Positions 1 to 64,000 of a stretch of 64,000 nucleotides of DNA are shown here, piece after piece. Position 1 is the stretch's first letter; each line of letters starts with the position of its first letter. Origin of the DNA: Vulcanisaeta distributa JCM 11216. Lineage in GTDB: Archaea > Thermoproteota > Thermoprotei > Thermoproteales > Thermocladiaceae. The stretch spans positions 62,001-126,000 of the forward strand of contig NZ_BBBI01000002.1 in assembly GCF_001315985.1 (NCBI RefSeq), given 5' to 3'. The position numbers and the translations under genes were made by a program. A model generated the notes under the pieces. The model ran no database searches, was not told the origin of the DNA, and saw only the letters and a list, made by a program, of their open reading frames with translations.

Positions 1-1109
1 GAGGTTACGCAGGATTTCGGAGGTGCCGGAGAGCAGTGTATAGCCCTTACTATCTATGTACCCAAAGGACCACTCAAACAAATCACCCTCAACAAGAGCC
101 TCAGGACCCAACTTTGAAATAGCGGTTATGTATATCTTCTCAAGAGCCTCAGAAGCCAATAACTTTATTGAAGCGGTTTCAGGACCCACAATCTCACCCC
201 CCCTCAATGCAAGCATGAGCATCCTATCATAGAGTTCCTTAATGGCTAAGGCCTCCTCGAGCAGCGCCAACGTATCCGCATCACGCTTTATCTCCGCCAA
301 GTGCTTAGCAACGCTTACTGCGGCATAGGCGAAGGCGCCGCCTATGTTCAGTCTCTCGAAGTTCAGGGTAGTCATGGCAACTCTCCAACCCTCACCGACC
401 TTGCCAACAACGTTCTCCCTGGGGGACCTTAACGTTATCCAGGAAAACCTCACTAAACCCCCCCGGCCTGCCATTGATCTGCTTAATGGGCCTGTAGGTA
501 ATTCCCTCGGATTTCGTGTCCACGATAAACATAGTCAAGCCCCCTATGCCTCTCCTCAGGCGAGCCCGTCCTGGCGAGTAGTAGGTAGTAATTGGCCAGG
601 TGAAAGTCACTGCTCCAGACCTTCCTGCCATTTATTATGAAATAATCACCCTTGTCCTCGGCCCTTGTGGTTATTGCGGCTAGGTCGGAGGCGCAGCATG
701 GTTCTGAGAAGCCCTGGGCCCAAACGTCCTCGCACGTTAGTATCCTCTTCAGGTACTTCTTTTTCTGTTCCTCATTGCCGTGATAAAGAATAGCCGGGCC
801 AGCGACGGATAAGCCAATGCCCGGGCAGCCGGGGGGGTAAACAATACCAAGGCTCAGCGCAACATCCCTTACTATTAATTCCTTCCTAACATCATCGCCA
901 AACCCACCATATTCCTTAGGCCAACTTATACCAACCAAACCAGCTTCGTAAAGCGTTCTATGCCACCTAATGGCTGCATCAATGAATTTAGGGTCCTCAT
1001 AATACCAACCAATACCACCACGCCTAATCCTCATCTCAGGAGGAGCATTCCTAATGAACCAATCCCTAACATAATTCCTGAACCCCCCCTCGAGTTCAGT
1101 CTCTGGCAT
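1..1109 (-). CDS. Acyl-CoA dehydrogenase (3' end off window)
   Basis: FAD enzyme that introduces the alpha,beta double bond into acyl-CoA, the first oxidative step of beta-oxidation. The N-terminal helical part is visible, followed by the segments WAQGFSEP and INGRKVWSS, the middle beta domain (GLTMFIVDT, SEVFLDNVKVP) and the start of the C-terminal four-helix domain (ALVEGDLFEW, LLSGTSEILRN). The frame breaks twice, at a C5 run (540-544) and a G5 run (421-425), each one base longer than the conserved reading needs. Two C7 runs (458-464 and 197-203) add a glycine each. An AT-rich box at about 1135-1142 fits a leaderless ATG at 1109. The gene is divergent from the acyl-CoA synthetase and continues past the left edge. 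Confidence 0.88.
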
Positions 1110-1295
1110 ATAAAAATCTTAATTAATTAAATTATTTTTATAAGTATTGCTTTATCGTAAATAAATGACACGCATAAAATAATAGCAATATAATTTTCCT
1201 ATAGTATATTTAATAACTTATATGATTTAATGAACGAATTAAATAATATGTATTTCCGAGAAAAATTTAAATAAATTTTATTTATAATAAATTTA
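1110..1295. promoter_or_regulatory. Divergent promoter region of the fatty-acid cluster
   Basis: This very AT-rich 186-nt gap separates two divergent CoA-metabolism genes. On the plus strand TTTAAATA (1266-1273) lies about 26 nt before the ATG at 1296, so the synthetase mRNA would be leaderless. On the minus strand a box at about 1135-1142 has the same spacing to the ATG at 1109. No clear operator palindrome was recognised. Confidence 0.55.
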
Positions 1296-3079
1296 ATGAA
1301 AGAGCAGGTCTCGCAAGAACATAAGTATGATACTAGAGAAGAAATCTTTAATGAGATTATACCTGGTTATCAATTAACCATTGACAAAATACTCAAGACA
1401 GGCGTAACGTTATTTCCCAATAATGAGATTGTTTATTGGCCTCCAAATGGCCGTAGGCTTCGTTTTACATTTAGTGAGTTTAATGAGAGGGTTAACAAGC
1501 TTGGATGGGTCCTTAAGGAGCTTGGCGTGGTTGGTGGTGACCCGAGGAGGATGGGTACGAGGGTTGCCATCCTCGATTGGAACACGCATAGATTCCTTGA
1601 GTTGCTATATGCTGTTCCAATGTACGGCGCGGTGCTCCAACCGGTTAATATTAGGCTGGCCTCTGAGGAGATTATTTACGTGATGAATAAGTCCAAGGAC
1701 GAGGTAGCCTTTGTATATTCTGACTTCCTGCCATTGATAAAGGCAATAGCCCCCCCAAAGCTTGAGTACCTAAGGAAGATAGTCGTCATGCATGATGCGA
1801 GGAGCCAATAAAGATTGAGCGTATCGGCAATGCCGAGGTATACGATTATGAGGAGTTGATGAAGGAGGCCAGGGAATTCAATTACCCAGAGGAGCTCGAT
1901 GAGAGGACTGTCATGGTGATGATGTACACCTCAGGCACCACTGGGCTGCCCAAGGCAACGATATTTAGGCATAGGGAAATTGTACTACATGCAATTGCCG
2001 TATTGATAATCGCAGTGTGGAATTGGTACCCAGCGCACTACTTAAGATTCACCAGGAACGCCTATAACCCACTCGGTGAGCCATCACTCCTCCTCGTACC
2101 GTTCTACCACGTACTTGGTTGGGGGGCGCCGTATTACAACATCATGGGTGGTACGCCGAAGATAGTACTGCCGGGTAGGTATGAGTGGAATCACATCATT
2201 AGGTTGATCAAGGAAGAGAAGGTAAAGAATGCGGCGGGTGTGCCAACAATGCTATACCTAATGCTAAGCAGTCCCGAGCTCAAGGACGTGGACCTGAGGG
2301 GGGGATTCCTATGGAGCCTGGGCGGTGCGGCAGCCACTAAGGGTTGATTGAGGAGGCTAGGAAGAGGGGGGGTGTGATATTAACTAATGGTTACGGATTA
2401 ACAGAGACAGCACCAGTCGTTATAGCGCCTGCATTGTCGCCAGACCTAATAACGAGCCTAAGCGAGGAAGAACTCCAGGAATTAATAGTCAACAGCATTG
2501 GAAAGCCCCTACTTTGTTCAAGCCAGGGTAGTTGATGAGAATGGCAAGGATGTGCCTAAGGATGGAAAAACCGTGGGCGAACTGGTGCTGAGGGCACCCT
2601 GGATAACCCTGGGTTATTACGGAGACCCAGAGAAAACAAGGGCCGCCTTTAGGGATGGTTGGTTCCACACTGGGGGGGACTTGGCAACGTGGGATGAGAG
2701 GGGGGGCTTTATCTACATCGTAGATAGGGCTAAGGACGTTATCAAGAGTGGTGGTGAGTGGATATCAAGCCTTAAACTCGAGAGTTTAATATCGCTCCAT
2801 CCAGCAGTTGGGGGGGAGGTGGCGGTCATAGGCGCTGTGCATGAGAAGTGGGGGGGTGAGAGGCCCGTGGCCATCGTCGTGCTGAGGCCGGAGTTCAAGG
2901 GCAGGGTTAAGGAGGAGGATATTATAAATCATGTGAGGAAGTTCGTGGATGAGGGTGTTATACCGAAGTGGTGGGTACCTGATAAGGTGATATTTGTTGA
3001 TGAATTGCCGAAGACCGGCGCCGCTAAGATTGATAAGAAGGTGCTTAGGGATAGATATAGGGATGTATTGATTAAGTAG
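1296..3079 (+). CDS. AMP-forming acyl-CoA synthetase (fatty-acid CoA ligase)
   Basis: Activates a carboxylic acid with ATP and CoA, feeding the adjacent beta-oxidation genes. The ATP-binding loop YTSGTTGLPKA, the motif GYGLTETAPVV, the hinge region GWFHTG(G)DLATWDE and the C-terminal VKSGGEWIS-like segment IKSGGEWIS are all present, and total length (about 590 residues) is normal for the family. The frame breaks at about 1797 and 2344 (one base missing each) and at 2506-2509 (one extra C). At least six G7 runs insert an extra glycine at family motifs, for example HTGGDLA for HTGDLA and KWGGERP for KWGERP. Substrate length cannot be told from sequence. Confidence 0.88.
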
Positions 3080-3142
3080 TGAAAATAATTATTCTCTTTA
3101 AGAATTAAAAATAAATTTATTCCTAATTACCTAGGATAATTT

Positions 3143-4305: not shown

Positions 4306-4306
4306 T

Positions 4307-4738: not shown

Positions 4739-5934
4739 ATGCCCGAGAGAATACTTATGATTGGATTTGGAACCATGGGAAGCGGCATAACCGAGGTCTT
4801 CGCAATGAATGGCTTTGAGGTTAATGTGTATGATATGTATAGAGACGTAATACCCAAGAGCCTTGAAGGCATTAGGTGGAGCCTTAATAAATTACGTGAG
4901 AAGGGGTCTTTACACGAGGATGTTGATACAATCATGAGGAGGATCCACGTATTTGATAGCCTAAGCAATGCGGCTAAGGATGTTGACCTAGTAATTGAGG
5001 CTGTATTCGAGGACCCCAAGGTCAAGCACCAGGTATACAGGGAATTGGAGGGTTATGTTAGGAGGAATACAATAATTGCAAGCAATACAAGCGGTATACC
5101 AATAACCTACCTACAATCGGTGCTTCAGTACAAGGACAGATTCGCAGGATTTCACTGGTTTAATCCGCCAGTGCTCATGAGACTTGTGGAGGTCATAAAG
5201 GGTAAGGACACAAGTGATGAAACGGCTAATGTGCTCATGGACTTGGCGAGGAGGGTTGGTAAGGAGCCAATACTCGTTAGGCGTGATGTCAGGGGTTTCA
5301 TAGCCAATAGGGTGTTTGGTGTGCTGAGTACGCAAGCCTTCATATTATACATGCGCGGTATTTATGATTATAGGGCAATTGATTCGGCATTGATCTACAA
5401 ACTCGGACTGCCAATGGGTGTCTTCGCGCTCACAGACTTCACGGGAGGGATAAAGCTAAGCTATGAGAGCAGGAACTTGTTTGAGGAGATAGATAGGGTG
5501 GCGCCCGAGACCGAGCCGTCTAAGGGGGGGCTGGCTAAGGCTAGGGCCGTCGTATTCAGCCTAATTGAGAAGATGTACAAGGAGGGCAGGATAGGCATAA
5601 GAACCGGGAAGGGATTCTATGAATACCCGGAGCCAGGTAAGTGGGTTAGGCCGGATATACCGAGGGAACTGGCGGATAGGGTGAACCTACTGGACCTGCT
5701 GGCGCCCATGGTCAACGAATCACTAAGGATGGAGAGGCTGGGCATATGCACCAGGATGATATAGATAAGGCACTAAAACTTGGCTATAACTGGCCAAGGG
5801 GCTTGTTTGAGGTATATGGCAGGGACTTCACGGCTAAGGATGTGGTAAGTACATTGCGAAGAATGAGTGACCTAATGCCAGACCTAAGGGAGTTTTATGA
5901 ACCAGACCCGGCATTACTAAATGAGGCTAGGTGA
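4739..5934 (+). CDS. 3-hydroxyacyl-CoA dehydrogenase
   Basis: NAD-dependent oxidation of 3-hydroxyacyl-CoA, the third step of beta-oxidation. The Rossmann dinucleotide motif GFGTMGSGI is at residues 7-15, followed by VIEAVFED, ASNTSG and the catalytic-histidine segment AGFHWFNPP, then RDVRGFIANRV. The C-terminal helical domain carries GRIGIRTGKGFYEY and the second repeat (IDKALKLGYNWPRG), so the protein has about 395 residues with two dehydrogenase C-domains. A single missing C near 5752 breaks the frame between them. G7 at 5524-5530 adds one glycine. It is separated from the DUF35 gene by 85 nt and may have its own promoter. Confidence 0.9.
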
Positions 5935-6708: not shown

Positions 6709-6722
6709 CTTTTACCCGAGCA

Positions 6723-6771
6723 TCAGCTCTGGTGCCAATCCTCACTGCTCAGAAATACCAGTCATCATCAC
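6723..6771 (-). ncRNA. C/D box guide sRNA (2'-O-methylation guide)
   Basis: Reading the minus strand: C box GTGATGA (6771-6765), a 12-nt guide (6764-6753), D' box CTGA (6752-6749), 3-nt spacer, C' box GTGAGGA (6745-6739), a second 12-nt guide (6738-6727) and D box CTGA (6726-6723). Both guides have exactly the 12-nt spacing known for archaeal dual-guide sRNPs assembled by L7Ae, Nop5 and fibrillarin. The D' guide is complementary to AAATACCAGTCA. An AT-rich box TTTTTAATA (6795-6803) lies about 26 nt upstream and is shared with the divergent sRNA at 6827. Confidence 0.82.
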
Positions 6772-6826
6772 TGAGACAAAACCAATTAAGGAAGTTTTTA
6801 ATACCTACCTCAACGCATTTAATACG

Positions 6827-7974: not shown

Positions 7975-8155
7975 ACAATCTCCCTACTCTTAAACTAAAG
8001 CCCTATTAAAATCTACAACATCTATACATAAACCCTCTAACAAACAAATCTAATAGATACATCAGCATAGATAAAGCATACGAGGACAGGTAAGGAGAAA
8101 GGAACAAAATAAAGACATTGCTGATTTTTATATTCAAATGCCAAAATAGTAAAAA

Positions 8156-8959
8156 CTATGTCTGGAAGTCTTGATACATGTCGCATGTGGTGTATTGGTT
8201 AAACATCTGCGTATACTGAACATTAGAATTCTCAGCAGTATTATTAGCGAGCGTACCCTGATATAGATTTACACCGGAGCAGTAATAGAACGTGCCAGAG
8301 CCACCGGAATTAAAAATTACATAAGAGACGTCAGCGCCGGCCCAAACAACATTAGATGGAAACCAATAATCCGAGTATTGAGATGGTATATTCCATACAT
8401 ATGTCCAAGGCCCATTCGTATTAGGTACTGACACCTGCTCATACACATACGAAATCATGCCATTACTATTCATACCATACAGGATATACCAAACAGCGCC
8501 AGAGACGAGAGCCCACGGTACATTTGATACCTCTCCAGGAATTTGTGGTTGCCAAATGAGGGCAGGATAAATCACACATGGGGGGGGTGGGACCCATATC
8601 TGTACAGTGAATAGTAACTCATTAGAATACGCATTGTATGCAATAATTCCCTGGACCCAGTATCCATTGCCTTGAGTACATACGAGATACTGATCTGGGT
8701 TGAACTGCAACGAAATCCAGCCATCATCATTTGGTCCGTAATACTGCACAGTCATAGTATTGACGATAACCGCGTGAACACTTACAAAGCTCGGCGTACC
8801 TGTGGTATCAACCTCATAATTACACCCACCGATAGGTTGTGAGCATGTGTTTTGCGCAACCACGCGTCCTGAGAATACCAACACTACCGTTAACATTATT
8901 AAGAGCGTTAATAAAGCAATAATTGTCACATTCAGGTTCTTCATCACCATGCTAATCAC
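8156..8959 (-). CDS. Secreted protein of unknown function
   Basis: 267 residues with a clear N-terminal signal or anchor (VTIIALLTLLIMLTVVLVF, then SGRVVAQ) and an extracellular part rich in Trp, Tyr, Asn and Gly (NDDGWISLQFNPDQYLV, GNGYWVQGIIAYN, WAGADVSYVIFNSGG). Cys residues early and late (CSQPIGGC, YYCSG, TTCD) could form disulfides. The overall look is that of a secreted beta-rich protein and is loosely reminiscent of thermopsin-like acid proteases, but no catalytic motif was identified. A run of eight G (8580-8587) encodes four prolines. Its ATG overlaps the stop of the upstream secreted-protein gene by 4 nt, so the two are co-transcribed. Confidence 0.6.
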   Translation of the reverse strand: MISMVMKNLNVTIIALLTLLIMLTVVLVFSGRVVAQNTCSQPIGGCNYEVDTTGTPSFVSVHAVIVNTMTVQYYGPNDDGWISLQFNPDQYLVCTQGNGYWVQGIIAYNAYSNELLFTVQIWVPPPPCVIYPALIWQPQIPGEVSNVPWALVSGAVWYILYGMNSNGMISYVYEQVSVPNTNGPWTYVWNIPSQYSDYWFPSNVVWAGADVSYVIFNSGGSGTFYYCSGVNLYQGTLANNTAENSNVQYTQMFNQYTTCDMYQDFQT

Positions 8960-9897
8960 CCGTTGGTGTTTATCTCATTTTTATTTGAGTAAATGACTGC
9001 GTAATTCGTAGGTAATGGGTACCAGATATACCCTATTATGTACTTTGGTGCTATGTTGCTTATCCCCCCCGGCGTTATGTCGTCCATGCTTATTGATTGC
9101 AGGTTTGTGATTGACTTTGTGATCACGTATATCGTGGGCTCCTCAATGATGTATTGGCCGTTTTCAAATAATTGCTTGGCCGTTGGTAAGGACTTACTCG
9201 TGCTTCCAAAGGTGCCGATCAAACCATACTTAACCATTAACTGGACCTCCTCGGCCTCGCTCGTGATGTTGCAGACCGGTAGTGCGTAGGGGACTGCGGA
9301 GTATAGGATCACCACTATGGTGTCACCTGGAGTGACGTTGATTGCGGGGAACCCAACGCCTATTCCCGTGTGTACCACGTACCAATTCTCCGTATTAGCG
9401 ATTTGCCAGAAGTTCATGGTTTTATTACCGTAAACGTATGGATGATTGACCGTTATGGCCAATGCCTGCAGTGGCTGTGATTGATTATTTGAGGCTATTA
9501 ACCTGCCGTTCAGGTATATGCCAAGCCACATGGCATTGCCTGAATATGACATGCTGGCCCATGATGACAGCGTCTCATTTATTATGGCGGTTGGGAAGTC
9601 AATGTATAATTCATAACCATTAATCTTCATATCCCCATGAACATGGTATACAAGGGCTATTGCCGAGCCACCGGGCATGATGAGGTCATAAGAAGAATTA
9701 CACCAGATAGCACCGTATTGGATTATGATTGGCATTATGGTTGGCGGATGCTCAATTGATTGACCCACGTGAGAGGGACTCACGGAGCCGGAACCACCGA
9801 TATGCCAAGTACTACGCACGACAAGCAAGGATACAACCACAGCCACCATAACCAACACAGCCACTAACCACCCCACCCTCAAACCCATAATAATCAA
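8956..9897 (-). CDS. Secreted or membrane-anchored protein, operon partner of the 8156 gene
   Basis: About 310 residues. The N-terminus LVAVLVMVAVVVSLLVV is a signal-anchor; the rest is extracellular, with several NxS/T sites and aromatic-rich beta segments (GAIWCNSSYDLIMPGGSAIALVYH, here shortened: GNAMWLGIYLNGRLIAS; NFWQIANTENWYVVH). No family recognised. C7 at 9064-9070 adds a glycine. The ATG at about 9888 (MGLRVGW) is the likeliest start. It is followed with a 4-nt overlap by the second secreted-protein gene, so the two products may act together at the cell surface. Confidence 0.58.
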   Translation of the reverse strand: MIIMGLRVGWLVAVLVMVAVVVSLLVVRSTWHIGGSGSVSPSHVGQSIEHPPTIMPIIIQYGAIWCNSSYDLIMPGGSAIALVYHVHGDMKINGYELYIDFPTAIINETLSSWASMSYSGNAMWLGIYLNGRLIASNNQSQPLQALAITVNHPYVYGNKTMNFWQIANTENWYVVHTGIGVGFPAINVTPGDTIVVILYSAVPYALPVCNITSEAEEVQLMVKYGLIGTFGSTSKSLPTAKQLFENGQYIIEEPTIYVITKSITNLQSISMDDITPGGISNIAPKYIIGYIWYPLPTNYAVIYSNKNEINTNG

Positions 9898-10243
9898 TTC
9901 TTCTCATTTTATGGGACTTTTTTTTTACTTCGGGTGTTCAGAGAAAGTGAGTCGAGTGGGTTTAGATGGGCTTTATGGTTGAGGGTTTCTGCTTGAACGT
10001 TGTTTTTGGCTGAGTTAGTACCTATGGGTTAGACTGAGCATTTGGCAATGATTAATGGACGAAACTAATCATTAATCGGCATGGACGTGCATTGCCAATC
10101 AATTATTCTTAATTCAGAATTGCGTTTATTCACCTACCAGCCTTACCAAACAACTTTCCTCAATCATTCGACTATTAATTAAAGATTGCCCAAGACTACC
10201 CTTAAATACTCAGCAGTTAAAATAATTAGTTAGTTAGAAGGTG
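9898..10243. other. Intergenic region with a small promoter
   Basis: About 350 nt without a gene. It holds the nested inverted repeat at 10042-10098 (listed separately) and, at its right end, CTTAAATA (10201-10208), a TATA-like box about 26 nt before roughly 10230 that could drive the small ORF at 10244. Nothing else was recognised. Confidence 0.5.
10042..10098. repeat. Nested inverted repeats
   Basis: TTGGCAATG (10042-10050) pairs with CATTGCCAA (10090-10098). Immediately inside, ATTAATG (10051-10057) pairs with CATTAAT (10070-10076). The two stems leave a short unpaired 13-nt segment on the right, so the element can form a branched hairpin. It lies at the left edge of the accessory island and could be an operator, a terminator or a relic of a small mobile element. 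Confidence 0.45.
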
Positions 10244-10447
10244 ATGAGCCCCCCCTGAGCAAACCACCCGGTGTAGCCGGGGGGGCGGATGCTCGGTGGG
10301 TGATCCAACCTGCCCGGCCCCCCCGTGGGTAGTGCCTAGGCGAGAGTATTGACTTTGTAAAATGCGTATGCGGTAATTACCTAAAGGGTGATGGCAATAA
10401 TAGCGGTAGCACCGGCACTGGTGCTAATGGAAGCAATAACAATTAAA
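10244..10447 (+). pseudogene. Small gene interrupted by an in-frame TAG and a C tract
   Basis: From the ATG at 10244 (preceded by AGAAGGTG), if the C7 run at 10249-10255 is read as five C, one frame gives MSPLSKPPGVAGADARWVIQ and RPRG, then TAG, then CLGESIDFVKCVCGNYLKGD and a Gly/Asn/Ser tail to TAA at 10447. The tail composition and the CVCG pair suggest a real small protein. The TAG at about 10328-10330 lies outside any homopolymer and has no downstream-shift rescue that I found. The same DNA can form paired G7/C7 stems (10279-10285 with 10318-10324), so an RNA role is the alternative. Confidence 0.35.
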
Positions 10448-10480
10448 TAACTTAGCCAATCAATCGCCTAAACGCTCACC

Positions 10481-10733
10481 GCCCTCCCTGCCTCTCTTCA
10501 TCCTCCTCCTCCCCCCCCTCTCCTTTGTGAGCAAGGAGCCGTGGGCCCTCCTCGTGAGGGGGGCTCCCGGCTCATGAGGGGGTGCTGTGGGGGGCTTGGG
10601 ATCCACGAGCACCGGGATTCCGATGGTGTCGGGGGGGGTGTCGTTCCTCGGCTGGTGATGGGGGGGCTTGGGATCCAAAGAACCAACCGAGGAAACGACG
10701 GGAGGGCAGGTGAAGAGGGGGGGTAGGGAGGGC
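10481..10733 (+). ncRNA. Candidate large structured RNA with two matching loops
   Basis: The ends pair: GCCCTCCCT (10481-10489) with AGGGAGGGC (10725-10733), extended by CTCTTC (10494-10499) with GAAGAG (10712-10717). Inside are a GAGCCG/CGGCTC hairpin (about 10536-10572), a hairpin GTGCTGTGG/CCACGAGCAC (10582-10590 with 10603-10612) and a long stem TCGTTCCTCGGCTGGT with its near complement (10641-10656 with 10682-10698). The last two each present GGGGCTTGGGATCC in the loop region. A TATA-like AATTAAATA (10441-10449) lies about 26 nt before a start near 10473. No SRP, RNase P, C/D or rRNA signature was found, so function is unknown. Minus-strand proline-rich frames here look like by-products of G runs. 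Confidence 0.5.
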
Positions 10734-10988
10734 ATTGCCCGAGCAACAAAAACAATAAGCTAGCAAGACATCCAGCAGTCCCTAGGCAAAAACAACCAAA
10801 ATCCTATGAATCACGGGAAAATAAAGAATGTTGTTCAAGCAATTGCTGAAACAAGCGATCAATGGGAAAAATGAGGAACGTAGGAAATTAGTGAGCAGAC
10901 TCTAGGGCTTTGTTGGGTAGGTTTTGCCTAGCCCATGGGGTGGGTCTTCCGTGGGGGGGCGCCAACCATTACCGGGAGGGTGGTACGG
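10734..10988. other. Intergenic, no gene recognised
   Basis: About 250 nt between the candidate RNA and the GC hairpin. It contains A-rich sequence (10742-10880) and then G-rich sequence from 10935 that is open in one frame into the next gene but resembles nothing I know. I see no promoter of good quality and no RNA signature. Confidence 0.4.
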
Positions 10989-11019
10989 CCCCCACGGGGG
11001 GGACCCGCCCCCGTGGGGG
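10989..11019. repeat. Perfect 12-bp GC hairpin upstream of the PaREP2-like gene
   Basis: CCCCCACGGGGG (10989-11000) and CCCCCGTGGGGG (11008-11019) are exact reverse complements separated by 7 nt. The hairpin lies 25 nt before the ATG at 11044 and is flanked by further G7 runs (10953-10959, 11028-11034). It could be a transcription terminator for the island to the left, a translational block, or a recognition structure for element mobility. Confidence 0.6.
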
Positions 11020-11043
11020 GGTTAAGTGGGGGGGTGAATCAAA

Positions 11044-12729
11044 ATGACGAGGAAAGACAAGCCAAAAAAGACCCTGCCCAGGGAGGGCAGGGATCAAAAA
11101 CAAAAAGAGGCAGGGAGGGCTGTGGGTGAGGAGGTAAGGGTGCCGGAGGCGATGGATATTTGCAGTGGTGTTAGGAGGGGGGGTAGGCGCCTGGTGTGTG
11201 GAGGGCCTGTCACGGATCCGGTGGTGAGGGCTGAGGTAATTGACTTACTAAACGAGGCCATGAAACGACTAATCAGGTGGAGAGTTTGGGATGCGCAATG
11301 GATAGATGAAATGCATGTGAAGAATATGGAGAGGGCCAAGGAAGCACTAAGGCAGTTAGAGGGCAAGTACCCAAGGGAAGTAATTGAGGTCATCGAGGGA
11401 ATAATCGACGCATTACTAAACCACGTGAAAAACAGACTAAAGAAGTACTGGATAAACAACGTTAGCGAGGATGTCAAGAGGCTGATCAGGAAAATAACGA
11501 ACGGAGGTGCTAAAGTCATAATAAACAAGACCGATAAGTCGTTGACTGTGCATGTATACGGGAATCATGTTGAGCTAAATGTTAATAGTATTTTTAGGAG
11601 CAATAGCGTGATTGTTCAATTAATACTTAGAGACTTAGGTGGTTTTCACATTAACGTACCTGATGTGCTTAATGACTTAATGAGTAATGAGGAGTACGTG
11701 AAGTTGATTGAGAATGTTGTTAAATCAATGAGGGGGGGGTGGGTTTGCTGTTACAGATGAGGGTAGGGATAGGCATGGCAATAGACCGGTGATGAGTACC
11801 ACGCAGCTATGGCAAGTGATTTTATGGTTGTTATTATATCCAGCGAGTCTCATGCCTATATTAATGCCGTTAACGTAAATAAGAGCGATGTCGCGATTAA
11901 GTGGAAATTAAGGGCTAGGTGCTGTTATTCAATAAAGCGGTGTGCGTTAAGTGACGCGTTAAAATATGATGATGGAGCATTCCTAACCTTTATTTTAGCT
12001 ATTATACTAGGTGATGGCGATGTCACGCTTTCATGGCGTAGCAATTCCGTTGAACCTATAGTTAAATTTACAATAAATGCCGAGGAGTTTGAAAAGAGTG
12101 AGGAATGGAAACAAATCCTTAATAGGCTTGAGCTACTTGGCATTATGTGGAGTAAGGATGATACTAGACGGGATAGGGTCGTCATTGTAATAAGAAGTAG
12201 TTATGCCATTAATTTAGTTAGGAAAATAATTGAAGCTTTGCCACCTGTGATTAATGCTTTATTTGACGTTTTAGAAGCTTTAGGTTTCGAGAAGTGGAGT
12301 AAGATTAAGGAGGTTGCTAATACGGAGCTGCGCTTTAAAACCGGTGTTTGGCAGGTCGAAATAGGTGGTGTGAAGTTTAGCATAAGTATCCCACATTCTT
12401 ATGCCCTTGTATTAAGGGTTAAGAGGTGTGATCCTATTGAGGCTCAAAGGATCATAGACCGTATAAGGATGATTTACGGTGAAGACTTCGAAATCAAGAC
12501 TAGAAGGAACAATAAAGGATGCATAGAAATTAAAATACCCTGGAACGAAATTAAGAGGCGCGATGATATTAAGAAAGTAATAAAGATGAAGCTTTGTGAG
12601 GTACTAGCACTAGGTGAGGTAAAGAACGAAGATATGCGTGTAAAAATGACAAACCTCCTTCAAAAACTCGCCCAGACACCCACAGAGGGGGGTCGGGCAG
12701 GTAAATCCAGTTACGCCTTACCTTGCTGA
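11044..12729 (+). CDS. PaREP2b-like repeat-family protein, frame-broken
   Basis: One reading frame reconstructed from two parts (about 560 codons). The charged N-terminus (DKPKKTLPREGRDQKQKE) leads into helices (EVIDLLNEAMKRLIRW, KEALRQLEGKYPREVIEVI) and then an alpha/beta region. The central junction, broken at G8 11732-11739 and near 11845, reads GFAVTDEGRDRHGN, STTQLWQVILW, SESHAYINAVNVNKSD. The segment FLTFILAIILGDGDVTL resembles a LAGLIDADG-type helix of homing-endonuclease-like folds. Multi-copy, frequently degraded PaREP2b proteins are known in Pyrobaculum; assignment here is by overall resemblance and is moderate. The reading frame ends exactly where SurE homology begins. Confidence 0.5.
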
Positions 12730-13434
12730 AAGTCGGCCTCTGGTCTTGGCATAACCCTTCATAAGCCGCTTAGGGTCTCGGTAATGGACCTTTGCGGCTT
12801 TAAGGTGTATGCGACTTCGGGTACTCCGTCTGACACGATATACTTGGCGGCCCTGGAGATAACGGGTAATGTGGACCTTGTCCTCTCCGGCATAAACATT
12901 GGTGACAACACCTCAATGCAGGTAATACTATCGTCGGGTACTCTCGGTGCCGCCTTTCAAGCGGCGCTGCTTGGTATTCCGGCTATTGCGTATTCTGTTG
13001 ATGTTGAGAGCGGTGATGAGCTTGAGGGTAATGAGGAGCTTGAGCCGTGCTTAGGGCTATAATTAGGGAGTCGGCATTGTTCGTGCTTAGGCATGGCATG
13101 CCTAGGGGGTGTTGATGTGATTAGTATAAACTTCCCGAGGACCGTTAGTAGGGATATTAGGGTTAAGCTTGTTAGGGCTTCGAAGCTTAAGTTCTCCGAG
13201 AAGATTGATGTTAGGGTTGACCCGCGTGGAGGTAAGTACTACTGGTTGTTTGGTTCGTTGCTTGAGCCTGAGGAGAATACGGACACCTACGTGGTTCATA
13301 AGGAGGGTAACATTGCGCTTACGCCGTTGACCTTGGACATGAATGCCATGGGTCCGCGGCAAGAGGTCGATATGGACAGCCTTAATAGGCTTGTTGACGT
13401 ATTAAACACGGCATTGATTCGTTTCCGAGGTTAA
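12730..13434 (+). pseudogene. surE: 5'-truncated surE (survival protein E nucleotidase)
   Basis: SurE is a metal-dependent 5'/3'-nucleotidase. From the codon after the TGA at 12727-12729 the frame reads [63 protein letters not shown] and later GVDVISINFPR, very like the Pyrobaculum enzyme. The first 40 or so residues, which hold the metal-binding NDDG motif, are missing, and there is no start codon before position 12784. Two compensating indels (near 13045 and 13110) scramble the segment [18 protein letters not shown]. With the catalytic aspartates gone it should be inactive unless the 5' part exists elsewhere. Confidence 0.8.
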
Positions 13435-13445
13435 GAGAAATAGAA

Positions 13446-13453
13446 CTTATAAG
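13446..13453 (+). promoter_or_regulatory. TATA box of the 13478 gene
   Basis: CTTATAAG is centred about 28 nt before the ATG at 13478, so the message is expected to be leaderless. It lies 12 nt after the surE stop. Confidence 0.5.
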
Positions 13454-13477
13454 GTCAATCATGTCCGTTAGTATGGT

Positions 13478-14071
13478 ATGAACGGTCATCAAATACTATA
13501 TTTCGATGAGGTAAAGAGGGGTAATTACATGGCGTTTGTGAATCACGTACTTGAGCAAGTACCGGTTGCCTATAGGGTGGGTGCAGTCGACGTAGAGGTG
13601 ATCAATAAGTATAGGGATGAGCTGCTTGGTATTACTGATGAGTTGAGTGAGGCTTACTGTACGGCTATGTCAACAACTAATACAGACTTCTTTAAGGGAA
13701 GTGATTGCATAGGGTTTATTAAGCAGTATTGGCGTGATTTCATCATTGGCATTGATAGGAATGAGCATTGGGTTAATATGATTATGTACATGCTCAAGCT
13801 GTTTAGTGCTAATGTGGGTGTAACCGCGCTGGTAACCTTACCAATACAATTGAGTTCATTGGCTGTATCAATAATTAGCGGTGAGAATAAGCCGGTGACT
13901 CAGTTGGTGAATTCCCTTGGAAAGCTCTCGGCATTGACGACAGCCTTCTACGCGGAGGCGCTGGTTCACTTACTGACGGAGAATGTTGGTGTGCCGCTAA
14001 GTGCCTATATGATGCTTGCTGGAGGGCTCGTAAGTGAATTACTGAGGGTCTATGGCAATGCCATTGCGTGA
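13478..14071 (+). CDS. Conserved-looking helical protein of unknown function
   Basis: 197 residues without a recognisable family. The N-terminus carries FDEVKRGNYMAFVNHVLEQV; the middle is helical with YWRDFIIGIDRNEHWVNMI; the C-terminal third is hydrophobic or amphipathic (LVTLPIQLSSLAVSIIS, LTTAFYAEALVHLLTE, LSAYMMLAGGLVSELLRV). This could be a helical-bundle sensor or a weakly membrane-associated protein. It has an intact frame and no G/C tract. Its stop overlaps the promoter of ileS. Confidence 0.6.
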   Translation: MNGHQILYFDEVKRGNYMAFVNHVLEQVPVAYRVGAVDVEVINKYRDELLGITDELSEAYCTAMSTTNTDFFKGSDCIGFIKQYWRDFIIGIDRNEHWVNMIMYMLKLFSANVGVTALVTLPIQLSSLAVSIISGENKPVTQLVNSLGKLSALTTAFYAEALVHLLTENVGVPLSAYMMLAGGLVSELLRVYGNAIA

Positions 14072-14103
14072 AATTTTTAAATACTCAATATAGTCTATGG
14101 TGG

Positions 14104-17100
14104 GTGTCCGTTATTGATTCACGATTCACACTGGAGATTCAGTTCGATGTGAAAAGGATTGAGGAGGTTGTTAGGCAGTATTGGCGTGAGGCGAACATTG
14201 AGGGTAAGTGGCATGAAGGCCCTGAAAACGCCAATAAGTGGTATACATTCCTCGAGGGGGGGCCACCAACGACTAACGGCTTCCCGCATGTTGGTCATAT
14301 TAGGGGGGGTAGGACGTATAAGGACGTTGTCCTTAGGTACCATAGGCTGCTTGGTTATAGGGTTTGGGCTCAGGGTGGTTGGGATGAGCAGGGCTTGCCT
14401 GTGGAGATCGAGGTCGAGAAGAAGCTTGGGCTCAGGACTAAGAAGGATATTGAGAAGGTTGGTTATGAGAAGTTCAGTCTTGAGTGTAATTCGCTTGTTG
14501 ATTACTACCTTGAGAGGTGGAGGGAGGTTGGTACGAGGAGGCTTGGTCTATGGTTAGACCTTGATAAGGCCTATGAGACTAGGAAGCCATACTACATAGA
14601 GCACGTCTGGTCCTTCCTAAAGAATGCCTGGGAGAAGGGATTGCTATTCGAGGACTATAGAGTGTTACCATTCTGTCCAAGGTGTGAGACGGCTCTCAGT
14701 GATGCTGAGGTTGACCAGGGCTATGAGGATAGGGAGGATCCGTCAATATACGTTAAATTCCCCGTTGAGGGTTCAAGTAATACTTACTTAGTTATTTGGA
14801 CCACAACTCCCTGGACGCTAATTGATAATGAGGCTGTGGCCGTTAATCCCAACTTTAACTACGCATTGGTTAAGGCCAATATTAATAACGCTACGGAGTA
14901 CCTATGGCTCGCCGAGCCCCTTGTACCCAAGTTGATGGAGAAATTTGGAGTTAAGGATTATGAAATTGTTAGGGTTGTTAAGGGTTCGGAATTGGCTGGG
15001 ACCAGGTATGGGCACATTTACATGGGGGGGAAGGTGCCAATACATGCTAGCCACATTGATAGGGCTCATTACGTGGTTCTTGCGGACTTCGTAACGCTTG
15101 AGGAGGGTACTGGGCTTGTTCACATAGCCCCTGCCCACGGCCCTGAGGACTTTGAGGTTGCTAAGAAGTATGGTTTGCCTATTACTAATTCCGTGGAAAT
15201 TAACGGCATATTTAATGAGAACGGTGGTGAGTTTAGGGGGCAAGTACTGGCTTGATGTTTCCCAGGAAGTAATTAAAGACCTGAAGGAGAGGGGCTTATT
15301 ACTTCGTTACGAGACAATAGTACATGCATACCCACACTGTTGGAGGTGCGGTACACCGTTGATTTATAGGTCTGATAGGCAGTGGTTCATTAGGGTGTCC
15401 GCATATAGGGATAAGCTGGTTGAGGAGCTTAGGAAGGTGAAGATATACCCGGACTTCCTTAGGGATAGTTTGATAATTGGGTTGCGAATGCCAGGGATTG
15501 GACGATATCGAGGAGTAGGGTCTGGGGGGGTACGCCACTGCCTGTCTGGCGTTGTAAGGATGACCCAAGCAAGATTCTAGTAATAGGTTCCCTGGATGAG
15601 TTGAGGAAGTACGCCAAGTTCATACCTAATGTACCGAGTGAGATGCTTGTTCATAGGCCTTGGATTGACATGGTGAAAATAGAGACTGAGGACTGTAGGG
15701 AGTGGGTTAGGGAGCCATTCGTTGTGGATGTTTGGATGGATAGCGGCGTTGCTGGATAGCCAGTGTTGATGGTCTTAGGAATAAGGAGTTGTTTGATAGG
15801 TTATATCCGTATGACTGGGTTACGGAGGCGATAGATCAGACGAGGGGGGGTTGGTTCTACTCATTACTCGTTACCTCTGTCCTATGGATGGGTAGGGCGC
15901 CCTATAAGTCCATACTGATTAGTGGTCATGTTGTTGATAAGTACGGGCAGAAGATGAGTAAGTCCAAGGGCAACGTGGTTTGGGCTGAGGACCTATTCAA
16001 TAAGTGGGGGGGTGCTGACCCAACGAGGCTCTACCTACTTACTAAGTCCGCTCCCTGGGATACCATGTCCGTTGATCCCGACGAGATTGCTGAGGCCAGG
16101 AGTGTACTTTCAATACTTTGGAATGTGATTAAGTTCGCGGACACGTACATGACCCTTGACAGGTTTGACCCAGCGGTGCATAGGCTTGAGGGATTAATTG
16201 ATAAGGGGTTGATTGAGGATAGGTGGCTACTCAGTAGGTTCAATAGTAGGTTGCGTAGGTTCATTGATTATATGAACAACATGGAGCTTCACATGGCCGC
16301 CAGGGAGTGGGTTAGTCTCGTCGTTGATGACCTGAGCCATGGCTATATTAGGCTGATTAGGCGCAGGGTCTGGACTGAGGAGAGTAGGGAGGATAAGTAC
16401 GCAGCGTATGCGGTGCTTTACCACGTGATTAAGGGGGGGGCATTGATAATGGGTTCAGCCCTAGTGCCGCATATAACCGAGTATCTTTGGAACGCATTTG
16501 TTAGAAGGCTTGAGAAAAATGAAGCGGAGAGTGTGCACTTAACATTGCTACCTCAGGTGAATGAAAAGCATGTGGATGAAAAATTGGAGAAAGCCTTTGA
16601 TTTGCTATTTGCCATGTTCTCAGACATTGCGGAGATGAGGAATAGGATAAAGGTTAAGCTTAGGTGCCGTTAGCTAAGGCCGTAATTAGGGTTGAAAACG
16701 CCAACAACCTAGAAATGCTGGGACGAGTGAAGCACTTGCTTGAATACTTAGCCAATATTAAGGAGGTGGAGTTCGTTAACGAAATTGGCCAATGCAGTGA
16801 GGAGGAGTATGTCAGGGCTCAGGGAAGGGGTTACGAGATATGCCTCAGCAAGGTCATGGATAAGAAATTGTACTATGAGGCATTGGCCAGGGAGGTCGTG
16901 AGGCGCATACAGACCATGAGGGCTAAGGCCAACCTTAAGGTTGATGAGAGGATTAGGGTATACGTGAGTACGGGAAGTGATGACTTATTATCAGCCATTA
17001 AGGAGTTTATGGGTTACATAACGAATGAGGTCAGGGCAACGGATGTCATTGTTGGTAACGTGCCGGCAAACGCCTTCGCCATGGATTGGGACATTGAGGA

Positions 17101-17140
17101 CATGAGGGTTAGGATAGGGATAGAACGCATTACTCAATAA
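14104..17140 (+). CDS. ileS: Isoleucyl-tRNA synthetase
   Basis: Charges tRNA-Ile. The class I signatures are present: PHVGH (HIGH equivalent) near the N-terminus and KMSKSKGN after the editing domain, with the binding motif WDEQGLPVEIEVEK, zinc-type CPRC (LPFCPRCETALSD), and the C-terminal anticodon-binding and extension domains. A TATA box TTTTTAAATA (14073-14082) fits a leaderless GTG at 14104 rather than earlier in-frame codons. The frame breaks at G5 15236-15240 (four fit) and at single-base gaps near 15468, 15756 and 16666. G7 runs add glycines to near-invariant motifs: LEGGPP, IRGGRTY, RVWGGTPLPVW, DQTRGGWFYS, KWGGADP. The 3' end overlaps the convergent ASCH gene by 7 nt. Confidence 0.93.
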
Positions 17141-17712
17141 TCCGTTATAACGCCCATGCGAATAAGGTGCTTAAGCGACTTCCTAATAATCCTCCTAATC
17201 ACGACCCTACCCCCCCTGAGGGAATTGAATAACTTAACCGCCGCCTTACGAACACTCCCCTCATTAACCAACTCCTGCAATACCCTCCTCTCCTCCTCAC
17301 TCAATGGTACATTATACCTAAGCGCCAGCCTGGCAATATCGACGGGGCTAAGCCCGATGGAACCATCATCCCTACGCCCAATTGCCTTAGTAACCTCCAG
17401 CGTGAGTATTGTGACCCAGTCATTATTGGTGATGTTACCATAGATGCCCCCCCTTAACTCATCAATTAACGCCTCACGGCTTGTGAAGCCATCGGCGACG
17501 GCATCCTCATCCGTCAACTCAGAAACCCTCTTGTAAAGCACATTCACTATGCGCGCCTTGGCAACGACCATACCGCCACTATGAATAAAGACCTCCCTGT
17601 ACTTCGGCCTAATTATACCAAGCCTAATCGTTGTGAACCTACCATTACCCAGCTTGTCCAGGTACTTCGACTTAAGCATTAAATGTCTACCCAGGTAAAC
17701 GACCCTACGCAT
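17134..17712 (-). CDS. ASCH (PUA-like) domain protein
   Basis: ASCH domains are RNA-binding PUA-like barrels with proposed roles in RNA metabolism. The N-terminal strand LGRHLMLKSKYLDKL, the GRFTTIRLGII turn and VVAKARIVNVLYKRVSELTDEDAVADG are typical, followed by NDWVTILTLEV and a C-terminal helical extension with winged-helix flavour (SVRKAAVKLFNSLRG, IIRKSLKHLIRMGVI). I choose the ATG at 17712 because the AT box at 17741-17750 lies the right distance upstream; an earlier start at 17739 would fall in the promoter. Two C7 runs add glycines. It overlaps ileS tail to tail by 7 nt. Confidence 0.75.
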   Translation of the reverse strand: MRRVVYLGRHLMLKSKYLDKLGNGRFTTIRLGIIRPKYREVFIHSGGMVVAKARIVNVLYKRVSELTDEDAVADGFTSREALIDELRGGIYGNITNNDWVTILTLEVTKAIGRRDDGSIGLSPVDIARLALRYNVPLSEEERRVLQELVNEGSVRKAAVKLFNSLRGGRVVIRRIIRKSLKHLIRMGVITDY

Positions 17713-17740
17713 CCTTACGGTTAATGAGGGAGAGAGCACT

Positions 17741-17750
17741 TTTAAAAGCG
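17741..17750. promoter_or_regulatory. Shared palindromic TATA box
   Basis: ACTTTTAAAAG-like sequence here is nearly symmetric and lies about 26-30 nt from both the minus-strand ATG at 17712 and the plus-strand ATG at 17771. It could serve both divergent leaderless genes. This is inferred from spacing. Confidence 0.45.
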
Positions 17751-17770
17751 TTTATTCGCGGTATATGTGT

Positions 17771-18116
17771 ATGGACCTTAGGAGTATTGTTAAGTACGCA
17801 AACGCGGCCTATGCCGGCTTAATGATAGGGCTAGCCGCCTACTTCGTAGTATTAATTAAGCATGGCTACACGTTTGTGCCATCAAGCTCAAGTTCAATAA
17901 GTATTTACCAGATATTTGAGTCGGGGGGCGTTGGGAGGACCATTATTGCTTGGTATCGTTCCATGGATCATCATGGTTATGATCATTTCAACATTGTTCA
18001 TTGTTTTAGTTAACATGGTTTATGAAAATAGTCTAAAGCCTGTGGGTAAGGAGAAGAGGATTATGAAAAGAAGGGAAGAGGAGAGGAAGAAGAAAGAGAG
18101 GGGGGGCAGGAAGTAA
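17771..18116 (+). CDS. Small two-helix membrane protein with a charged tail
   Basis: About 115 residues: a first hydrophobic helix (AGLMIGLAAYFVVLI), an external loop rich in Ser, a second helix (PWIIMVMIISTLFIVLVNMV) and a Lys/Arg/Glu tail (KRIMKRREEERKKKER). The frame breaks at G6 17923-17928, where five G join the two halves as FESGALGGPLLLG. Function unknown. The topology, with a long basic cytoplasmic tail, would suit a protein- or nucleic-acid-tethering role, but that is a guess. The start follows the shared box at 17741-17750. Confidence 0.62.
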
Positions 18117-18138
18117 TTTAAATTCAATAAGGCAACAT

Positions 18139-18417
18139 TTACTCTAGTTCCTTCTCAGTTAATCTACGTTTTACAGCCCTGTCAAAAACCACCCAATTCC
18201 TATACCACTCCTCATTGGTCTTCTTAAGCTCTGTGAGTATTGCCTTGGTTAGGTCCTTGGCGGTTACCCTATCAACATCCATGAACTGGCACTCGATCTT
18301 CCTGGCAATCCTCCTTGCTACGTCAATTGGCGCGCCCGTCTTGAGTATGCTGACCACGATCTTCTCAATCACGAAGTCCTCCTCAGAACCATCCCTCTTA
18401 ATTACCTTATTTACCAT
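18139..18417 (-). CDS. Stand-alone ATP-cone domain protein
   Basis: 92 residues that consist of an ATP-cone only: the opening VIKRDGSEEDFVIEKIVVSI is the family signature, followed by RIARKIECQFMDVDRVTAKDL and WVVFDRAVKRRL. ATP-cones sense dATP/ATP in ribonucleotide reductases and NrdR repressors. Here there is no catalytic or zinc-ribbon partner, so a nucleotide-sensing regulatory role is inferred. The frame is intact and has no G/C tract. Confidence 0.78.
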   Translation of the reverse strand: MVNKVIKRDGSEEDFVIEKIVVSILKTGAPIDVARRIARKIECQFMDVDRVTAKDLTKAILTELKKTNEEWYRNWVVFDRAVKRRLTEKELE

Positions 18418-18481
18418 AAGTAATTACTAAATAAGTCACTACCTAAAATATCTTTCTCTAATTAATTAATCCGTATTTGAC

Positions 18482-19822: not shown

Positions 19823-19885
19823 GATGGAATTACTAAACGTAATTATTTAAGCTTGATTACTCAATAGGATGATGGGTAAATCAGC

Positions 19886-20206
19886 TCAGTATAATGCCAA
19901 GTCCCTGAAGTCGTATGGTATTGGCTTGCCCTTTTTCTTAAGTTCGTCATACCTACTGGCCAGGAAGGCCTCAAGTATTGGGCATCCCTCGTACTTGCCG
20001 TCTCTAGGGCATTTATGGTCTTCGGTATTAAATAGTATGAAGCAGTCGCCGGACCTCGTGTCATAGTATGGGCACTTCTTGTAGTAGTCCTTCATTGACC
20101 TAACTATCCTAACGATCCACCTCTGCTTTGGATCCCTTATCTCTCGCTTTAGTTCATATTCATTTAAATCCTCCTCGTCCGAGTAACCATACCTCACTAA
20201 AACCAC
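19886..20206 (-). CDS. Small cysteine-containing protein
   Basis: 106 residues, charged and cytoplasmic, with four cysteines in the centre (KKCPYYDTRSGDCFILF, HKCPRDGKYEGCPILEAF). The spacing C-x8-C...C-x7-C could bind zinc or an Fe-S cluster. Nothing more is recognised. The frame is intact. It lies divergently to the MoxR ATPase gene, with about 120 nt between the starts. Confidence 0.6.
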   Translation of the reverse strand: MVLVRYGYSDEEDLNEYELKREIRDPKQRWIVRIVRSMKDYYKKCPYYDTRSGDCFILFNTEDHKCPRDGKYEGCPILEAFLASRYDELKKKGKPIPYDFRDLALY

Positions 20207-27465: not shown

Positions 27466-27471
27466 TTGGTC

Positions 27472-29696: not shown

Positions 29697-29698
29697 CG

Positions 29699-34119: not shown

Positions 34120-34520
34120 AGCGCCTATTGAAGCTCCTTCTTCATTACACATCCTTACTGGATAACTTAAGCGTTAATGACTTGGAGGACGTGTATAAGT
34201 ACCTCTCGGCCGTGTACCTGCTACAGGTTCAAGCCCAGTCCCTCATTGATATGGCTGTTAAGGCTGCATCTGCTATGGGCTTTGAGGTTGAGGGCTACAT
34301 AGACGCCGGTAATAAGTTGGTGGGTGCTGGGTTGCTTAGTAATGAGGAGTTTAGTAGGTATAGGTCTGTCGTTAGGTTTAGGAATATCGTGGTTCATCAA
34401 TACGGCATAATTGACACCAACGTGATCCGGAGAATAATAGGTAATAGGGAGTATAGGGAGGTTGCCAGGCTCGGTATCAAGATCGTGGAGGAATTACGTA
34501 AGCGAGGAATTGATTGTTAG
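34107..34520 (+). CDS. HEPN-domain toxin
   Basis: 137-residue helical RNase toxin. The catalytic motif RxxxxH is visible as RNIVVHQYG at about residues 95-103, preceded by the helix EEFSRYRSVVRF. The N-terminal helices (LLKLLLHYTSLLDNL, YLLQVQAQSLIDMAVKAASAMGFE) are typical of the DUF86-like HEPN subfamily. It pairs with the overlapping MNT gene and ends in a 4-nt tail-to-tail overlap with the HerA gene. Confidence 0.83.
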   Translation: MGAIERLLKLLLHYTSLLDNLSVNDLEDVYKYLSAVYLLQVQAQSLIDMAVKAASAMGFEVEGYIDAGNKLVGAGLLSNEEFSRYRSVVRFRNIVVHQYGIIDTNVIRRIIGNREYREVARLGIKIVEELRKRGIDC

Positions 34521-53043: not shown

Positions 53044-54293
53044 GTGCGGATAAACCCAGCACTATGCATTAGATGTAGAGGAGAATACAACCTATGCGGG
53101 CTATCCTACTGTCCAGTCCTGGCGGAGCTACGTGCTAGGTACACACTTAGAAATGCCGTTAATAAGGAACGCATTGACGGATCCTCACCACCAAGCATAT
53201 TCATTGGGCGTATTGGTTACCCAAGGGTTAATGTATACCCAGCGGCACCACCCATCCATGGCGATACCAGCAATCTCGAGAACCCAAAGACCTGGCTAAG
53301 CATGAGGCTTGAGGACTTCATATCAAGTAGACTATCGCTAATTAGGGGGGGATCTATCAGGGCTAGGGTTGAGGATGCTAGGAACCCTCCCAGGGCTTTA
53401 CACGATATACAGGTCATGACGTTACCGAACAAGCCAGTGGATTCCGAGCTAATACTTGAGAAACCTGTGGGTGCCAGGTACGTGTTTGATGAGCATTCAC
53501 CACCCTTTGGGCCGTCGGCGCCATTGCAGGAATTAAGGATCAGTTCGTTACCACCACCGCCAAGGATAGTTGATAAGGTTTACAGCGACACAGACTTGAA
53601 CGCTACGGAGGCTATATGGACGTTGTATAGCCACGGCATTGATGTGCACCACATATCAAGGCTACTAAGCGTGGGTACCCTTGGTGTTGGTAAGAGGAGG
53701 AGACTCGTGCCAACTAGGTGGTCAATAACTGCCGTTGATAAACAGGTCTCCGATAAACTGCTCAGTGAGGTTCGTGACTACCCGCTCATAAGTGAGTATA
53801 GGGTATACGTGAGGAGCTTCAAGGATAATACCTTCATAGGGATCCTGGCACCACATACCTGGCTTTATGAGTGGCTGAGGCCTGGTGGCCTGGCTCCACA
53901 TGGAATGTATGGGGGGGTGGTGATGTGGCTCTTGAGCTTGACTATGAGGGTTACTGGGGGGGGCGTGATGACTACCCATCAATAGGTGGTTGTTACTACG
54001 CAGCTAGGATAGCCGTACTTGAGGCATTACGTTCAATGCGTAGACAAGCGGCTGTCATACTATGGCGTGAGATTTACCCAGGCTTTAACCTGCCAATTGG
54101 TGTTTGGTGGGTTAGGGAGAACATTAGGGCGATGCTTAATGGACCGTACGAAAGGTTTTACGAACTAAACGACGCCCTGAGGTACGTGGCGGGTTTCCTA
54201 AAACTACCGATAAGTACCTGGGTATCTCGGTCTTACGTAATTAGGGTCCTCACAAGGCAATCAAGCCTAGTCAATTGGTTGGGCGGTAAGTAG
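53044..54293 (+). CDS. nreA: Archaeal DNA repair protein NreA
   Basis: Nre proteins act in repair of DNA alkylation damage. The zinc-like N-terminal motif CIRCRGEYNLCGLSYCPV and SPPSIFIGRIGYPRV are signatures; the middle contains SMRLEDFISSRLSLIRG and WTLYSHGIDVH; the end is RQSSLVNWLGGK, which matches a PCNA-interacting (PIP) motif QxxLxxWL, as known for NreA. Two runs damage the frame: G7 at 53911-53917 (five fit) and G8 at 53956-53963, between which YGGGDVALELDYEGYW is recovered. Followed directly by a radical SAM gene. Confidence 0.85.
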
Positions 54294-61996: not shown

Positions 61997-62086
61997 ATCT
62001 CCGTAATACCTTAGTCATGCATTATTATAAATCTTACTTACAGTAAAGGTAATACAAGGACACGCGGTTTTCTAGCACTGCCTACT

Positions 62087-62943: not shown

Positions 62944-63014
62944 CGAGACAAAGACCTGAAAACTAACTAAAGAGTTTTGCCTCAGTGACCAATAAATAAA
63001 TCATGAGTAATACA

Positions 63015-63383
63015 TCACCCCCCCAAGCACCTCCTGGCCTTACTCACTAACTCGCTTGAGATGCCTAGTTCATCCTTAAGGACGACACCAATAGCCAGGT
63101 CTAGTGCGAGGGGGTAGCACCGGTCAACGATCCTCATTATCTCATTGACGTTGAACGCAAGAACCTCGACATTAGGTGGAACATCCAGGTCAAGAAGCCT
63201 CCTATGCGGTGGCTCATTAAAGCTGCCTATGACAACAATATCGACATCACTATCCTCAGCAAAATCACCCCTGGCGTAAGAACCAACTAGGAACACCGTA
63301 CCACGAACCCTATCAGCAACCTGCCTAGCCAACTCCAACGCCCTATTCCTCAACTCCTCACGCCACTTAATAATCCTCTCCAT
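63015..63383 (-). CDS. MNT nucleotidyltransferase antitoxin
   Basis: About 122 residues. FLVGSYARGDFAEDSDVDIVV is the GSYARG...DxD motif, and VEVLAFNVNEIM gives the third acidic position. Partner of the HEPN gene upstream, which it overlaps by 34 nt. C7 at 63018-63024 near the end. Compare the similar pair at 33708-34520. Confidence 0.84.
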   Translation of the reverse strand: MERIIKWREELRNRALELARQVADRVRGTVFLVGSYARGDFAEDSDVDIVVIGSFNEPPHRRLLDLDVPPNVEVLAFNVNEIMRIVDRCYPLALDLAIGVVLKDELGISSELVSKARRCLGG

Positions 63384-63580
63384 AAATCCTCAATAAACGT
63401 TATAATCCTCTCGGCAGCCTTAATAGCCATTTCTGCATCATTACGTGTAAAGTACTCATAGGGCACATCCTCACTCCAGGCATCAACGTACCTAGTCGGT
63501 ACATAGAACTTATCGAGAAACTTACCCAAATCCATAATGTCAATAGGGACCTGAACCATCCTACCTAATTCACCGAGCAA
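63350..63580 (-). CDS. HEPN toxin, N-terminally truncated
   Basis: 76 residues with the HEPN C-terminal half FLDKFYVPTRYVDAWSEDVP and YFTRNDAEMAIKAAERII, typical of the KFYIPTRYPD subfamily that pairs with MNT. Usual members have about 120-130 residues; the missing N-terminal helices would lie upstream of 63580, where the frame SITHLLGELGR continues but ends without a start. Either an indel hides the beginning or the toxin is decaying. Confidence 0.72.
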   Translation of the reverse strand: MLGELGRMVQVPIDIMDLGKFLDKFYVPTRYVDAWSEDVPYEYFTRNDAEMAIKAAERIITFIEDLWRGLLSGVRS

Positions 63581-63708
63581 ATGAGTAATAGAGCGTTCTC
63601 TTAGCCATTAAAATTCATCTACTGAACTCCTCAACATCAGCACCAACACTCATTATCCCTGAAAGACTTGACTAAGACTAAGGTTAAAAGTGTATAAAGG
63701 TCCGAACC

Positions 63709-64000
63709 ATGAGTATTACTGAAATGCCCATCTACTCATGGCCATTGAGAATTTATGAACCATCAAGCGAATTACTCAGACTACCCAACGTTAGGGAGAG
63801 CCCATTTAGTGTAAAGCTCGAGAATAACAAGGTCAAGTGCACCCTATGCCATAGGCATTGCACATTATCAAATGGGCAGGTCGGTCTCTGCGGCATGAGA
63901 TTCAACGTAAACGGCAAACTCTACACAGCCGCATACGGCCTATTGACAGCGGCTGAATCAAGGCCGATGGAGATAAAGCCCCTATTCCATTACTACCCAC
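63709..64000 (+). CDS. amrS: AmmeMemoRadiSam system radical SAM enzyme (partial)
   Basis: N-terminal 97 residues of AmrS. KCTLCHRHCTLSNGQVGLCG is the cysteine-rich start of the family, followed by GKLYTAAYGLLTAAESRPME and KPLFHYYP. In other genomes it works with the Memo and AMMECR1 proteins, thought to modify a target by radical chemistry. TTAAAAG about 24 nt upstream of ATG 63709 fits a leaderless start. The gene continues past the right edge. Confidence 0.85.
   Translation, partial: MSITEMPIYSWPLRIYEPSSELLRLPNVRESPFSVKLENNKVKCTLCHRHCTLSNGQVGLCGMRFNVNGKLYTAAYGLLTAAESRPMEIKPLFHYYP

Follow-up and report, generated by a model that had tools for sequence, protein, structure and literature searches.

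Strand-phased G/C runs of seven bases in the Vulcanisaeta distributa JCM 11216 genome: almost certainly an artefact of the assembled consensus

The window analyzed here is the whole stretch of 64,000 nucleotides from Vulcanisaeta distributa JCM 11216, i.e. positions 62,001–126,000 of contig C2 of an assembly (G000) that comprises 2.42 Mb in 65 contigs and is 67.75% complete. Besides the features listed below, it holds ORFs matching the Pfam CLP1 P-loop (18485–19822, minus), the HerA central domain (DUF87; 34520–35980, minus), and the archaeal Nre N-terminal domain (53044–53982, plus), as well as three adjacent long ORFs rich in Thr, Asn, Ser, and Tyr (26161–31531) that look like surface or secreted proteins. 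A search of the window against Rfam returned one hit only, a C/D-box RNA-like match to sR28 (6721–6772, minus) that falls short of the gathering cutoff (27.2 bits against 39), and a phage collection searched with positions 8000–20000 gave no match. The runs and the gene on which the analysis draws are as follows (lengths in related genomes from alignment, unless otherwise indicated).

1–64000, no strand assigned: 142 G/C runs of at least 6 bases, i.e. 74 sevens or eights of G, 53 sevens or eights of C, and 15 sixes (run counting; lengths in unaffected relatives)
4903–4906, plus: G4, unchanged
5798–5801, plus: G4, unchanged
14068–17140, plus: leucyl-type tRNA synthetase gene, split across several ORFs (Pfam PF00133, PF13603, and PF08264; ORF pieces; indels relative to G007)
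14303–14309, plus: G7; four in the unaffected relatives G002, G007, and G010, seven in the affected relative G008
15524–15530, plus: G7; four in G002, G007, and G010 and also in the affected G008
16205–16208, plus: G4, unchanged in the window; seven in G008
16433–16440, plus: G8; five in G002 (alignment; indel comparison)
29501–29507, no strand assigned: C7; four in G002, G007, G010, and G008

The length distribution of G/C runs in the window is sharply peaked. Among the 142 runs of at least six bases, 119 (84%; 68 of G and 51 of C) are exactly seven bases long, 15 are six, and 8 are eight, which bears out a hand count in the initial annotation (about 140 runs, four in five of them exactly seven). 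Shorter G/C runs number 68 of four and 27 of five bases, while A/T runs fall off normally (189 of four, 72 of five, 4 of six, and 1 of nine). Since G/C runs of at least four bases (237) are no commoner than A/T runs of that size (266), it is the lengths that are shifted and not the number of tracts. The claim that chance would give only a few such runs holds in part; a first-order chain predicts ~42 runs of at least six bases, ~9 of them exactly seven long (summed from the table), but the corresponding regions of the unaffected relatives (three, of 75–78 kb each) contain 2–5 sixes and no sevens. Long G/C runs are present in every 8-kb bin of the window, and the excess is not confined to it but extends genome-wide in G000. 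They are densely packed at 10249–11034, where 13 runs, each 6–8 bases long, lie within <800 bases, and no Rfam family matched in this cluster.

Matching regions of G002, G007, and G010, which are unaffected, and of G008, which is affected, were fetched and aligned to the window, and changes in run length were counted only at cleanly flanked sites for which the aligned unaffected relatives share one length; sites with poorly aligned flanks were dropped. The window and G002 share 91.5% identity across 48 kb aligned, with one 7.6-kb piece scoring 84%. Where the relatives have a run of four (n = 126), the window has seven in 76 cases, four in 39, five in 7, six in 2, and three in 2, in agreement with the earlier proposal that the sevens equal four plus three bases. 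Runs of five in the relatives (n = 17) appear as five in 7 cases, six in 5, seven in 4, and eight in 1; as such, the statement that fives turn up as six, seven, or eight applies to 10 of the 17, and the other 7 remain five. In a stricter set, for which two or more unaffected relatives give the original length, seven replaces four in 33 of 58 cases and 21 of the 58 fours are unchanged, as are 3 of 3 fives. Relative to G002, 81 of the 105 insertions at G/C runs of at least four bases add three bases, 14 add one, and 10 add two, and A/T runs of at least four bases show 2 insertions and 2 deletions. The change from four to seven affects 32 of 58 coding and 4 of 6 noncoding sites, the latter being few. 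Unchanged G4 runs named in the initial annotation do exist, at 4903, 5798, and 16205, but two of them had been placed one base off, and the run at 16205 is seven in G008.

The same extra residues are not found in the unaffected relatives, as nearly every site with seven in the window has four in G002, G007, and G010 (59 sites for G002), which counts against a biological origin. Moreover, the expanded sites of the window and of the affected G008 differ. Of 59 sites scored in both for which an unaffected relative has four, 14 are expanded in neither, 11 in G008 only, 16 in the window only, and 18 in both, and the two sets of expanded sites are statistically independent (Fisher P = 0.60).

Across the whole of G000 we counted 4803 G runs of exactly seven bases, both strands included. 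Exact-seven G runs occur in the thousands in only 3 of 405 distinct Thermoproteota genomes, i.e. G000, G008 (3857), and G020 (7958), and the remaining 402 genomes scanned have at most 340 each. G008 belongs to the genus of G000 and G020 to another genus within the same family, whereas ten other, separately sequenced genomes of the genus of G000 have 0–5 such runs each. The genus assignment is supported by G004, another of its members, whose EF-1-alpha matches that of Vulcanisaeta sp. JCM 14467 at 100% identity. Completeness is low in the other two affected assemblies as well, at 67% for G008 and 47% for G020. The length spectrum is alike in the stretches sampled from the three (taken from five G000 contigs and from three contigs each of G008 and G020), being low at five and six and peaking at seven. 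By contrast, run lengths fall off smoothly in G014 and G017, from the genus of G020, and in G029, a genome with more G7 runs from another family of the order (836, 381, 130, and 17 at lengths four to seven); the depleted fours and the peak at seven thus set the affected genomes apart from G029. The genome of Pyrobaculum aerophilum reportedly contains length-variable G/C tracts, as the initial annotation noted, and the resemblance is that both cases concern G/C tracts within the same archaeal order.

The expansions strike sequence that is invariable in a living cell, in the 23S rRNA gene of G008 and in the EF-1-alpha gene of G000. A search of six genomes recovered the 23S gene in four, and the rRNA test rests on G008 because the gene was not found in the G000 and G020 assemblies. 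In the partial 23S gene of G008, about 50 of the runs compared exceed their G007 counterparts in length. Fours in G007 (n = 46) become seven in 23 cases, four in 13, five in 8, eight in 1, and three in 1; fives (n = 19) become seven in 7, eight in 6, five in 5, and six in 1; and sixes (n = 5) become eight in 4 and seven in 1, with three shorter runs also differing. Between the two unaffected genomes G002 and G007, 108 of 109 23S runs are equally long; 73 of 74 fours, all 28 fives, and all 7 sixes keep their length in G002. In an alignment from which G008 and G010 were left out because their rows were oppositely oriented, the EF-1-alpha gene of G000 shows three changes from C4 to C7 relative to G002, two of them within the motifs RGVTI and QGQTREH. 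These motifs are invariant in the three EF-1-alpha sequences compared, and they tolerate no insertion. The 23S and EF-1-alpha expansions speak against a working genome that contains them.

Errors of another kind accompany the expansions. The EF-1-alpha gene of G000 is additionally split by frameshifts, and that of G002 (L080) also carries single-base frameshifts, one or more of them at the places where G000 is frameshifted, without run expansions. Because G002 is frameshifted and not expanded, the expansion is a separate error for which ordinary long-read noise alone is insufficient. In the window, the tRNA synthetase gene at 14068–17140 has seven gains of three bases that end in runs of seven or eight G, along with three 1-base deletions and one 1-base insertion relative to G007. 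This essential gene is split by 1-base indels away from long G/C runs. With clean flanks required, the window as a whole has 28 deletions and 8 insertions of one base relative to G007, and 15 of the deletions lie at G/C doublets or triplets and 3 in A/T runs of at least four bases. Relative to G002 the counts are 21 deletions and 40 insertions, and some of the insertions may instead be bases lost on the G002 side. That the other errors in the window are mainly 1-base deletions suggests noisy long reads. Matches to tRNA genes, counted in six genomes, number 34 in G000 and 42 in G007.

The fraction of runs of at least four bases that end at six or more is 0.55–0.60 in the first samples and 0.58–0.64 in larger ones. 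It varies with the preceding base (0.54–0.64 in G000 and 0.43–0.57 in G008) and, in G020, with the second preceding base (0.43 to 0.69) and the letter (0.58 for G runs and 0.70 for C runs). These flank differences are real but modest, and we rejected sequence context as the cause. With both letters pooled, the expansion of neighboring runs is uncorrelated. When the letters are distinguished, however, pairs <20 bases apart agree in 0.76 of same-letter and 0.32 of opposite-letter cases (three genomes pooled). Within 200 bases, same- and opposite-letter agreement is 0.64 and 0.36 in G000, 0.63 and 0.38 in G008, and 0.69 and 0.38 in G020, and the difference between the two in the pooled genomes (0.29) lies far outside a shuffled maximum of 0.057 in 1000 permutations. 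In a larger sample, among opposite-letter pairs at most 80 bases apart, exactly one member is expanded in 548 of 819 pairs in G020, 148 of 241 in G000, and 48 of 76 in G008, and neither is expanded in 41, 27, and 7 pairs, respectively. This strand-phased expansion is a new observation that goes beyond the initial annotation.

The phase signal decays to background over 200–300 bases, and linear fits in three contig pieces reach zero at 259–286 bases. A strand bias shared over many kilobases was rejected, pair agreement being near background beyond 300 bases, with a weak same-letter excess out to ~2 kb. Fixed consensus windows were also discarded, as the best-scoring periods differ among the three contig pieces (1179, 1080, and 485) in a scan run without a shuffled control. 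The phase patches are shorter than genes (the median ORF is 257 aa in the G007 region), and no link to the coding strand is detectable (P = 0.56, 58 sites). Strand phase without such a link indicates that the expansion tracks a property of the reading and not of the genes.

Taken together, the long G/C runs are almost certainly an artefact of the assembled consensus and not part of the DNA of the organism. The earlier leaning toward an assembly or base-calling effect thus finds support in the 23S and EF-1-alpha genes, the independent sites of G008, and the strand phase. Under the explanation we favor, reads of one strand would report a tract about three bases too long and those of the other strand would be nearly right, and the consensus would follow the version of one strand over a short stretch of ~200–300 bases. 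The local switch between long G runs and long C runs would arise because one strand's reads overcall and the consensus locally follows one strand. A tract would end at four or seven, and seldom between, if neither strand supports five or six. The sequences themselves show that G/C runs of at least four bases gain length, in most cases exactly three bases, that none exceeds eight in the window, and that A/T runs are untouched. As a whole, and leaving the platform aside, this account of read-strand-dependent lengths taken over in patches is likely to be right, as far as assembled sequence can tell. A slight influence of the letter and of certain flanking bases is a point against it. We are less sure of the data type, which may be noisy long reads, and perhaps ones obtained from native DNA by nanopore sequencing.

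For nanopore reads, an excerpt from PMC8486125 reports that reading accuracy at longer homopolymers is poorer for C and G than for A and T, that insertion errors accompany slow translocation, and that homopolymer errors usually shorten the longer homopolymers. Going by that excerpt, published nanopore errors mostly shorten homopolymers, so a gain of three bases is not a standard error. Uncorrected long-read assemblies, as described in an excerpt from PMC12007338, likewise have gene-breaking indels, low completeness, and errors concentrated at homopolymers; their errors, however, are mainly deletions, mostly in A/T runs, unlike the strand-phased gain of three at G/C only that is seen here. Our literature search found no paper linking Vulcanisaeta with nanopore or long-read MAGs, none on guanine overcalls in long-read metagenomes, and no title on the G/C-run pattern.

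Other origins within the sequencing process are less probable. Consensus software with a badly fitting run-length table for G/C, which turns fours and fives into sevens irrespective of read strand, would fit the skipped lengths of five and six, the near-ceiling at eight, and the restriction to G/C, but it does not by itself predict that neighboring G and C runs behave in opposite ways, and we regard it as unlikely. A flow-based platform producing short reads of ~200–300 bases, with tract length set by whichever strand was read locally, would account for a phasing that fades over about a read length and for the absence of a common fixed grid (in the scan without a shuffled control). Flow-based platforms are expected to err at A/T homopolymers too, whereas A/T runs of at least four bases are nearly clean here relative to both G002 and G007, and this origin appears improbable.

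Explanations that appeal to the organism fare no better. The miscalls could be the footprint of an undescribed chemical modification of native G/C tracts of at least four bases in these hyperthermophilic archaea, in which case the tracts of one strand would read ~3 bases too long; we hold this to be a slim prospect, comparable to that of flow-based reads. Methylation miscalls through PF00145 or PF01555 were rejected, as these two families, the ones examined, do not separate affected from unaffected genomes (the DNA methyltransferase family PF00145 is present in 15 of 15 genomes and PF01555 in 14 of 15, missing only in the affected G008). Least credible of all is real tract instability, in which the organism's own tracts gain three bases as in a repair-deficient lineage. 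It could draw on the thousands of sites involved, spread over three species within a single family, and on gains that mostly preserve the frame, but it would have to strike 23S rRNA and EF-1-alpha motifs, spare A/T runs, act at a similar rate at the few noncoding sites, and be absent from a relative as close as G002. It would also have to skip lengths five and six for a sharp peak at seven, without a broad and smooth spread, and show strand phasing over patches that do not span a gene.

It follows that three species-level public assemblies carry thousands of false tract lengths, false Gly and Pro codons, and an altered rRNA gene. The signature, i.e. few G/C fours, a peak at seven, and local opposition of G and C runs, is screenable from assembled sequence alone. 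Gene models, trees, and completeness scores derived from the affected assemblies may suffer, and the extra residues could pass for lineage-specific insertions.
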